This document shows positions 3,327 through 28,979 of a stretch of 50,795 nt of DNA, piece by piece (position 1 is the first letter of the stretch; each line of letters begins with the position of its first letter). The translations under genes were made by a program, and so were the position numbers. Below the pieces are notes generated by a model. The model was not told the DNA's origin. It worked only from the letters and a program-made list of their open reading frames with translations, and did not search any database. The DNA is from an uncultured Chitinophagales bacterium. GTDB lineage: Bacteria > Bacteroidota > Bacteroidia > Chitinophagales > JAHDHT01. Where the stretch lies: positions 1-50,795 of the forward strand of contig CALHDG010000098.1 in assembly GCA_938023075.1 (NCBI GenBank), read 5' to 3'.

Positions 3327-4433
3327 TTATGCCCCTATTAAAAACTCGCCGTTTTTGTAAATCAGTTCATCGTCTGTCCAAATTTCACCGCCGTCGCGCA
3401 TTTCGGTAATTAAATCCCAATGAACCGGCGATTGGTTTTTACCACCGGTTTGCAGGTAAGATTGACCTAATGCCATGTGTACCGTGCCGCCCATTTTTTC
3501 ATCGAACAAGGTGTTTTTAGTGATGGTTTGAATACTGTAGTTAGTGCCAATGGCGGCTTCGCCAAACACTTTGGCACCCGGTAATGCGAATACTTCGTCT
3601 AATACTTGCTGACCACTTTTGGCATTCCACCGAATAACTTCACCATCTTTCACCTCTAAAGTAACATCACGCACTTCTTGACTCATATATATAGAAGGCA
3701 TATTAAAATGTACGATGCCATTTACTGAATTTTCTACAGGGCTTGTGTATACTTCACCTGAGGGCATATTGGTTTGACCGTCGGAGTTGATCCACGTTCG
3801 ACCTTCTGTTGAAAAACTAATATCGGTACCTGAGTTATTTAGATATTTTATTTGTGTGCTTTTGTTTAAATGGTCAACAATGGCTTGTTGTTGTTGGCGT
3901 ACTTTTATCCATTCGGCAATTGGATCTGCTGCATCTAATTTGCAGGCTTTAAACACAAAATCTTGATAGTTACTTAATGTCATACCTGCCATTTGTGCTA
4001 AGGCATTGCATGGAAATACACATAAACTTCGCTTTAAATTGCGGGTAGCTGTTCGTTGCGAATAGATATTCATGGTAGGTTGCTTCGCCTTTTTAGCGCG
4101 TACCACTTTTTCTTTATTTGCCCCTTGCAAACTGTTTAAGTTAAAAGGAGACTGTATATATAAATAACACTCGAAATTTTCTAAGGCATAACTTACAAAT
4201 GGGGAAAAATAATCTAATTGCTCGTCTTTCGCAAATTCGTAATAAATATGATCTTGTCCTTGAAATGACATGAGAAATTCTATCTGCCCGCCTGCTTTAT
4301 ACACTTCTTCGCTTAAGGCTTGTAGTAAGGGTTCAGCCAAATAAGTGCTTCTTACAGCTAAGCGATCGCCTTTTTGCATTTCAAGACAATAGTTTACTAG
4401 TAGGTTGGCGTATTTCTGATACATTTTTTCCAT
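3327..4433 (-). CDS. Aminopeptidase, peptidase family M29
   Basis: A metallo-aminopeptidase of the thermophilic aminopeptidase (AmpS/PepS/aminopeptidase T) family, removing N-terminal residues from peptides in the cytoplasm. The metal-binding landmarks are visible in order: NMPSGEVYTSP (Glu), FGEAAIGTNY (Glu), DEKMGGTVHMALG (Glu and His) and SPVHWDLITEMR (His and Asp). Length, about 368 residues, is normal for M29. I start at the ATG encoding MEKMYQKY; two codons further upstream lies an in-frame TTG. Family B copy 2 begins 43 bp upstream of this start, so the promoter must lie in or across the repeat. No signal peptide. Confidence 0.92.
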   Translation of the reverse strand: MEKMYQKYANLLVNYCLEMQKGDRLAVRSTYLAEPLLQALSEEVYKAGGQIEFLMSFQGQDHIYYEFAKDEQLDYFSPFVSYALENFECYLYIQSPFNLNSLQGANKEKVVRAKKAKQPTMNIYSQRTATRNLKRSLCVFPCNALAQMAGMTLSNYQDFVFKACKLDAADPIAEWIKVRQQQQAIVDHLNKSTQIKYLNNSGTDISFSTEGRTWINSDGQTNMPSGEVYTSPVENSVNGIVHFNMPSIYMSQEVRDVTLEVKDGEVIRWNAKSGQQVLDEVFALPGAKVFGEAAIGTNYSIQTITKNTLFDEKMGGTVHMALGQSYLQTGGKNQSPVHWDLITEMRDGGEIWTDDELIYKNGEFLIGA

Positions 4434-27706: not shown

Positions 27707-28864
27707 TCAATACAACAACCCAAATACCCAAAGCGGGATAGATTGACCAACTTTTCTTTCTAAATTATCTTTCACTACAAAAGCATTATCTAAATTTTTA
27801 ATTTGTTTTCGGGTTTTGTGTTTACCCTCAATTTCAAAACTAAATTTATTATCTACCAAAAAATCACTCTCTTTAGAATAGCTTACCTGATGTTTGTTTG
27901 CTAACTGATTAAAAAACCAAGTTTCTCTCAGGCTTCCTAAATTTGGTAATTCTTCGCTTAAAGCATACATTAAGTTAGTGTTTTCTAAATATATTTTATG
28001 GGGTTTTTGCAAAGAAGCCACACTAAAACTATGCTGTTCTAATAAGAGCAAAAGTTTAGCCTGCGCCAAATAATAGAGGTAATTATTTAATGAATTTCTA
28101 TGAATGTTGGTTTTCTCAGCCAACGAACTCAAGTTAGGTTTAAAAGGCACCTGCTGAGCAATAATGTACAATAACTTTAACAGCTTTTTAGCCTGCCGAA
28201 TATCAAAACCCTTTATCTCTGCCATATCATATTCCACAATATTTCTAACCACCTGCCTCAATTTTTTATAGTAGGCTGTTTTGTCTTCATTATAATAGGG
28301 GTAATAACCAAACTTTAAATAATCAGTAAAATAGGCAAGCGGTTTAAAGTTGTTGGATAAAACTTCCTGATAAACTTCGGGCTTGTACAAAATATCATGC
28401 AAGCTTAATACCGGTAATAAAATACCATGTTCAAATTCTAAAAATTCGCGAAACGACAAACCCTGCAGTTCGTACATAACCGCTCTTCTACTTAAATCAC
28501 CTTCTTGTTTATTAATATCAACAATGGATGAGCCAGTAAAAATAATATGTAAATCAGCGTACCGGTCGTACAAGTTTTTTATTTCTTTCGACCAGTTTTC
28601 ATACTTATGCACCTCATCTAACACTACTAATTTCCCACCATTTAAATAAAAAGTATCAATAGTGTCTAACAAAGAATGTTTACTAAAATACAACTCATCT
28701 AAACTAAAATAGGCTTTAGTTTTTTCCGTACTATTTTTTAAATATTGAAGAAGCAAGGTTGTTTTTCCGGTTCCTCTTGCCCCTTTTATCCCAATTAGCC
28801 GGCTTTGCCAATTAACTTCCTCCATTAAGTATCTTTTGAAGTTATTGGTGGTTTGAGCAATCAT
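27707..28864 (-). CDS. AAA (AAA_14) ATPase with DUF4143 domain
   Basis: About 385 residues. The AAA_14 domain carries Walker A GIKGARGTGKTTLLLQYL, Walker B KLVVLDEVHKYENW and sensor IIFTGSSIVDI. A middle helical part (LQGLSFREFLEFE) leads to the DUF4143 region (winged-helix-like NIHRNSLNNYLYYLAQAKLL) and a nuclease-like fold segment near the end (KESDFLVDNKFSFEIEGKHKT). The frame extends upstream only to a TTG; I start at the ATG giving MIAQTTNNFKRYL, as in relatives. The family is abundant in Bacteroidota and archaea, often linked to DNA transactions, but its function is not established. It is a lone gene with its own promoter and three palindromic sites. Confidence 0.88.
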   Translation of the reverse strand: MIAQTTNNFKRYLMEEVNWQSRLIGIKGARGTGKTTLLLQYLKNSTEKTKAYFSLDELYFSKHSLLDTIDTFYLNGGKLVVLDEVHKYENWSKEIKNLYDRYADLHIIFTGSSIVDINKQEGDLSRRAVMYELQGLSFREFLEFEHGILLPVLSLHDILYKPEVYQEVLSNNFKPLAYFTDYLKFGYYPYYNEDKTAYYKKLRQVVRNIVEYDMAEIKGFDIRQAKKLLKLLYIIAQQVPFKPNLSSLAEKTNIHRNSLNNYLYYLAQAKLLLLLEQHSFSVASLQKPHKIYLENTNLMYALSEELPNLGSLRETWFFNQLANKHQVSYSKESDFLVDNKFSFEIEGKHKTRKQIKNLDNAFVVKDNLERKVGQSIPLWVFGLLY

Positions 28865-28895: not shown

Positions 28896-28979
28896 TTGCA
28901 CAATTAACAATGCAAATATACAATTTTTTGCACAAATTAAAGTGCAAATTAGGTATTTATTGCACAATTAAATAGGCAA
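28896..28979. promoter_or_regulatory. Array of three 20-bp palindromic sites at 32-bp spacing
   Basis: Sites: TTGCACAATTAACAATGCAA (28896-28915), TTGCACAAATTAAAGTGCAA (28928-28947) and TTGCACAATTAAATAGGCAA (28960-28979). Starts are exactly 32 bp apart, with 12-bp spacers. The middle site has perfect 6-bp arms. The array surrounds the promoter of the AAA ATPase gene, the -7 element lying between sites 1 and 2, so it is well placed for repression or autoregulation. Confidence 0.7.
28913..28920 (-). promoter_or_regulatory. TAnnTTTG promoter element of the AAA ATPase gene
   Basis: On the minus strand TATATTTG fits the Bacteroidota -7 consensus. It lies about 49 bp upstream of the chosen ATG and partly within operator site 1, so a bound repressor would block initiation. 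Confidence 0.5.

Follow-up and report, generated by a model that had tools for sequence, protein, structure and literature searches.

The window, by which we mean the whole stretch of 50,795 nucleotides that was analysed (contig CALHDG010000098.1 from an uncultured Chitinophagales bacterium), contains a predicted anti-virus defence gene, a PADLOC candidate, that encodes an ATPase and is preceded by three candidate operator sites (Table 1). Two neighbours in the window were identified, a ribulose-phosphate epimerase gene and a CDP-alcohol phosphatidyltransferase gene, and neither encodes a regulator. An alternative TTG start at 28903, which falls within site 1, would give a protein of 398 aa; in that numbering, H255 of the 385-aa protein (codon 28100-28102) becomes H268.

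Table 1. The ATPase gene, its predicted domains and the features of its promoter. Positions are those of the window.
Feature	Coordinates	Strand	Location, description or basis	Sequence
Operator site 1 (candidate, start-proximal)	28896..28915	-	-51 from ATG 28864	TTGCCTATTTAATTGTGCAA
Likely -7 element	28913..28920	-	read from sequence	TATATTTG
Operator site 2 (candidate)	28928..28947	-	-83 from ATG 28864; six outer pairs intact	TTGCACTTTAATTTGTGCAA
Operator site 3 (candidate)	28960..28979	-	-115 from ATG 28864	TTGCATTGTTAATTGTGCAA
ATPase gene	27707..28864	-	385 aa from ATG; AAA_14 and divergent DUF4143; PADLOC PDC-S01	
AAA_14 NTPase domain	28439..28804	-	profile match	
Predicted winged-helix domain, about residues 222-293 of 385	27986..28201	-	secondary structure of AlphaFold2 model	
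Predicted N-cap H255 and recognition helix 256-268 (385-aa numbering)	28061..28102	-	covariation, model	
PD-(D/E)XK-nuclease-like C-terminal part, residues 303-385	27710..27958	-	conserved residues; family fold in the available part of PMC12988326	

The ATPase and its predicted fold

The window protein matched AAA_14 (PF13173) at 100 bits against a cut-off of 27, and its match to DUF4143 (PF13635) was weak, at 33.4 bits against a cut-off of 28.1; among near relatives, L092 fell under the latter cut-off (25.4 bits) and L180 had no match. Six of the seven listed PDC-S01 models also matched (best E 1.3e-29), and we regard the protein as a distant member of PDC-S01. An alignment of 85 sequences showed that the Walker A and B residues G28, G33, K34 and D83 are invariant and that T35, T36 and E84 are nearly so. 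In the putative nuclease part, E314, D334, E344 and K350 were conserved and the standard ExK spacing was not seen, this part having been viewed only within the whole protein.

An AlphaFold2 model based on the 85 sequences had a mean pLDDT of 92.2 and placed H255 directly before the predicted recognition helix, as its cap. Foldseek alone ranked RuvB first. In a second look with VIA-align, the best solved folds were SSO1545 (2fna, Z 16.0) and PAB2304 (2qen, Z 15.7), followed by plant NLRs (Z 14-15) and CED-4. Residues 4-303 of the window protein aligned on 2fna (rmsd 3.7, 257 aligned), with the same arrangement of an NTPase followed by a winged helix, and residues 1-304 aligned on 2qen. The model thus suggests that the ATPase is a STAND/NLR-like NTPase with a C-terminal nuclease-like part.

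A phased array precedes the ATPase gene

The first-pass annotation had described three palindromes of 20 bp in exact 32-bp steps with 12-bp spacers at this promoter, and these coordinates proved exact. Its term "palindromes" needed qualification, since the symmetry is present but imperfect: 7, 6 and 7 of the 10 base pairs are matched in sites 1, 2 and 3, respectively. Pairwise identity among the sites is 15/20, 17/20 and 16/20. We scored the 250 nt before ATG 28864 for palindrome arrays of width 20 and lag 32/33, blind to location, and this score picked exactly the three sites, reaching 27.7 against a mean of 5.0 (sd 2.65) for dinucleotide shuffles. A chance origin of the repeats in AT-rich DNA would fit the modest plain self-match score of the promoter, 19.9, where at least 20 was found in 5% of 107 control promoters. 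However, none of 3000 shuffles attained the palindrome-array score, none of 400 reached the lag-free three-copy score of this promoter, and the enrichment described below extends across the family at one width and one lag; we therefore rejected chance, on these statistics, as vanishingly improbable. The array is real and lies beyond chance.

The -7 consensus of Bacteroidota is TAnnTTTG. A -7 element had been proposed for the gap between sites 1 and 2, and the likely element does lie mostly there, except that its final three bases also form the start of site 1. The same overlap recurs in the window subfamily, where TANNT stood before the last site, thereby forming TAnnTTTG, in 41 of 82 genes and before the other sites in 7 of 125 cases. 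A -33 element was not located at the window promoter. The position of the -7 element bears on whether the palindromes might be RNA hairpins in the leader, an idea to which the 41-bp palindrome abutting the start codon in another subfamily (L048, below) lends some appeal. Transcription from the window promoter would leave out two of the three sites, which are upstream of the -7 element, and the operator bases covary with a DNA-binding helix, so we rejected RNA hairpins as scarcely credible.

The geometry of the array is kept in relatives

Two overlapping draws of 395 genomes each yielded relatives in 56 and 55 genomes. The resulting subfamily has 145 loci, of which one (L209) had no frame, and upstream DNA was sufficient in 141 or 142. 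We scanned lags with the width set to 20, and widths with the lag set to 32/33, assuming no frame. The results showed that width 20 and lag 32/33 stand out, with z>3 in 77 of 141 genes versus 5 of 128 controls; other lags gave 0-13 of 141. A frame-aware finder detected 20-bp sites at 32/33 bp before the start codon in 82 of 142 genes versus 2 of 128 control promoters, leaving 60 of 142 in which it found no array at z>3. Because this finder rewards the outer frame, conservation of bases 1-3 was judged not from information content but from an unbiased pass, in which 71 of 142 genes exceeded z>3, most with the same frame. These subfamily scans took the window gene from its TTG, which hides site 1, and the window score was redone from the ATG. 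Absence of the array upstream of orthologues, which the first-pass annotation had held would count against its proposal, is not what these scans found: the array was kept.

The expectation that relatives would carry the same array was borne out for its geometry but not for its sequence, which is private to each gene. The outer bases (T/A)TG...CA(A/T) are constant and inner bases 4-7 differ between genes; half-sites read TTGCAC in the window and TTGCTTA, TTGACTT, TTGTTA, TCGGTC and others in relatives, and the 57% identical homologue L092 (genome G010) has TTGCACAAT/ATTGTGCAA sites. A search for an identical array would therefore recover the nearest relatives only. The sites also appear to be dedicated: in genome G258, the exact motif matches were its own three array sites and no others. 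A wider regulon was also considered and rejected: a search of the window's own genome with up to three mismatches gave 258 matches versus 101 for a reversed control pattern, and among the 100 places listed, which reached into the three-mismatch class and took in part of the lone weak sites, the window array alone formed a cluster.

Operator bases covary with the predicted recognition helix

To relate protein columns to operator bases 4-7, we used the 82 genes with an array (effective number 62). Column 268 of the 398-aa numbering, which is H255 of the 385-aa protein, was an outlier, with a summed z of 30.1 against 18.0 for the next column. Histidine at this position went with CA at bases 4-5 in 7/7 genes, asparagine with CTTA in 9/19, and glycine with ACTT in 5/10 and with GTTT or GTCT in 4/10. 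Serine, the commonest residue (30/82), occurred with diverse operators, so this single residue is not the whole code.

The association held when the rest of the protein was controlled for: the 12-residue segment 263-274 came first among 194 (partial r 0.324, against a median of 0.010 and an sd of 0.076), and the AAA and nuclease parts were slightly negative in the same relatedness-corrected scan. For residues 268-270 the Mantel value of 0.273 exceeded the maximum of 1000 permutations (0.139). With partners restricted to <50% identity, the helix predicted the bases at 0.494, compared with 0.323 for the rest of the protein, 0.367 for the AAA domain, 0.361 for the nuclease part and 0.371 at random; without the identity limit, the helix was only slightly ahead of the AAA domain (0.764 versus 0.738). 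Column 268 ranked first of 359 in pairs of >46% identity, and second and fifth in two other, narrower identity bands. Together with the AlphaFold2 model, this covariation supports the earlier proposal that the ATPase itself may bind the array through its winged-helix-like segment.

These results also bear on two other readings of the array. Phased promoter palindromes are typical of ordinary dimeric repressors, and it could be argued that a separate, trans-encoded regulator binds the array with the ATPase merely as its target, a reading with which the lack of an array in 60 of the 142 relatives is in keeping. However, the operator bases track the recognition helix of the ATPase beyond relatedness, no gene family occurs beside at least 4 of 57 subfamily loci, every paralogue would require a regulator of its own, and the matches listed for the genome show no second cluster of the motif; a trans-encoded regulator is therefore unlikely. 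The second reading, which takes the repeats for mobile-element ends or targets or for nuclease sites, would draw on the nuclease-like C-terminus and the patchy distribution (56 of 395 genomes). It was rejected as highly improbable, since no such repeats lie near the 3' end of the gene in the window, the geometry is anchored to the -7 element and the start codon, and the bases track the winged helix rather than the nuclease part.

A proposed model of self-recognition and autoregulation

We consider it likely that the array acts as a private operator for the ATPase gene, read by the protein's own winged helix, and that it serves self-recognition and autoregulation. In the model that we infer, one dimer would occupy each 20-bp site, and two or three dimers would sit side by side, three helical turns apart, a spacing through which they could bind cooperatively. 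The bound dimers would occlude the promoter, and the ATPase would thus keep its own level low; repression is preferred to activation on the grounds of position alone. Going by the STAND/NLR-like fold, a nucleotide state or a trigger might further alter exposure of the winged helix, and this change might couple derepression to activation of the nuclease-like part. With a motif of its own for each paralogue, many such genes can coexist in one genome with little cross-talk.

If correct, this model predicts for PDC-S01 a concrete activity, the reading of its own promoter, and specifies the helix and the bases involved; it also links an NLR-like fold with the sequence-specific reading of DNA. It further offers the start of a recognition code leading from helix residues to half-site bases, and it would explain the coexistence of many paralogues in one genome without cross-talk. 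The array thereby gives a handle on the function of a large, common and unexplained ATPase family.

Relation to known systems

Among the defence systems of prokaryotes, PDC-S01 has been ranked fourth in frequency, with the standing of an unvalidated candidate, and PDC-S01 and PDC-S27 were both presented as fusions of ATPase domains with PD-(D/E)XK members; anti-phage validation is pending for most such PADLOC candidates (PMC12988326, as far as its available part goes). The same part of PMC12988326 makes no mention of an operator, DNA reading or regulation for either system. In the literature searched, which did not include subscription papers and preprints, we found no description of these arrays.

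Some likenesses to characterized proteins deserve comment. The alignment with SSO1545 and PAB2304 excludes the C-terminal nuclease-like part of the window protein, and we know of no operator for either of them. Autorepressing controllers of toxin-antitoxin and restriction-modification systems are defence-type genes that hold their own promoters down through private operators, but they use a small dedicated DNA-binding protein, whereas here the ATPase itself is proposed to do so. The mycobacterial regulator IniR binds a promoter and has an AAA+ part that resembles SSO1545, but it is a protein of 818 aa with a MalT-like middle and an SdiA-like DNA-binding end, and regulates iniBAC, and the available part of its description reports neither a nuclease part nor a private phased array (PMC5760070). 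NanR is similar in that three repressor dimers adjoin one another on three repeats of one operator, according to the available part of PMC8012715, but it is a stand-alone metabolic repressor, in contrast to an ATPase-nuclease proposed to read its own gene.

A far more speculative extension, which we put forward as doubtful, is that PDC-S01 and PDC-S27 proteins together make up a vast class of NLR-like ATPase-nucleases in prokaryotes that use the winged helix as an address reader. Each would form a phased oligomer on its own private promoter array; sensing, self-silencing and nuclease activation would be one DNA-bound conformational switch, and operator-helix pairs would diversify, insulating the many paralogues of a cell from one another.

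Repeats at the promoters of paralogues and related subfamilies

The window genome has 24 AAA_14 matches, some of which are other ATPases. Promoter reading covered 22 of the 24, and three without an ATG in range were left out. Nearly all of the promoters read have repeats, each of a different sequence. Among 18 paralogues of two kinds in this genome, 16 scored at least 18, the exceptions being L001 and L007. The best cross-matches between paralogues were near background (95% at 16.1), the highest being L016/L019 at 24.2, and L005/L010 giving 19.1. The window genome (G000, 6.1 Mb) has 10 ATPase genes of the DUF4143 type and 8 of the PF01637 type (480-aa), almost all of which have repeats of their own, and a search of 40 related genomes gave no DUF4143 match in 19.

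Across the window genome and related genomes, a score of at least 18 was found for 44 of 73 DUF4143 genes and 11 of 12 genes of the 480-aa kind (a count that does not contain L236 and L237); the corresponding figures were 8 of 107 for control genes and 3 of 21 for other ATPases. L015, L021, L022, L023 and L038 are other proteins or fragments and were taken out of the DUF4143 count, two of them (L015 and L022) joining the set of 21 other ATPases; L020, L024 and L102, which had no frame, were left out. Where the best repeat of a DUF4143 gene was direct (31 genes), the lag was 32-33 in 19 and 22-23 in 8, with none at these lags in controls. The 22-23-bp period, equal to two helical turns, was seen in other subfamilies (L001, L002, L003, L030, L031, L047, L062, L075 and L076).

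The 480-aa kind, assigned to PDC-S27 through L018 (E 1.7e-189), has longer inverted repeats, often in at least two copies. Two copies of a 41-bp composite belonging to L018 are present in the window genome, each just upstream of L018 itself.

In the 453-aa subfamily (36 genes), 32 of 36 genes scored at least 18, and all 32 did so at a lag of 32, 33 or multiples. Its members (L400-L427 and L004) have direct, non-palindromic arrays of the TTTACCCTTATTTTGTTACAAA type in 33-bp steps, with several copies each. These direct-repeat arrays at 33 bp or multiples would suit another role for the window array, namely that the ATPase binds it chiefly as an assembly or sensing platform (a filament, a resistosome-like oligomer or an invader tripwire) with autoregulation secondary; the resemblance of the fold to oligomerising NLRs and CED-4 would, by analogy, point the same way. 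The arrays nevertheless overlap promoters, a position that autoregulation suffices to explain, and we hold a chiefly platform role to be rather doubtful and retain self-recognition with autoregulation as the preferred reading.

Finally, we analyzed the L048 subfamily, which comprises 80 loci from named organisms of many phyla; 78 were usable and, with 17 from relatives, gave a set of 95. Plain self-matches of at least 18 were found in 15% of the 78. A single 41-bp palindrome near the start codon was detected at z>2.5 in 46 of the 95, and at width 37 the palindrome was found in 39 of 95 versus 4 of 128 controls; ATG had been appended to every L048 upstream stretch irrespective of the real start codon, and in sites ending at -1 the final two bases therefore carry no weight. 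In L048-type PDC-S01 genes (L300-L379), the long palindrome ATCCTTGCAAATT...AATTTGCAAGGAT lies against the start codon and covers the likely ribosome-binding site. Its hosts include Proteobacteria, Acidobacteria, Verrucomicrobia and Actinobacteria, among others, and the palindrome could work at the level of either DNA or RNA. Covariation in this subfamily did not single out the recognition helix, the top segment being 189-200 (r 0.316; median 0.027, sd 0.110), in a set of 42 genes chosen by score and by CTTG/CAAG, from which four rows were dropped by hand and in which one column value is meaningless.

Inspection of the control promoters also revealed a dispersed repeat with inverted ends, of the type AAATAAATTTACATTCTGAC...GTAAATTTATTT and longer than 100 bases, that recurs before several genes of unrelated kinds. 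It was seen at window genes starting near 4433, 26366 and 32933 and at L127 near 4771, and it is perhaps a small mobile element.
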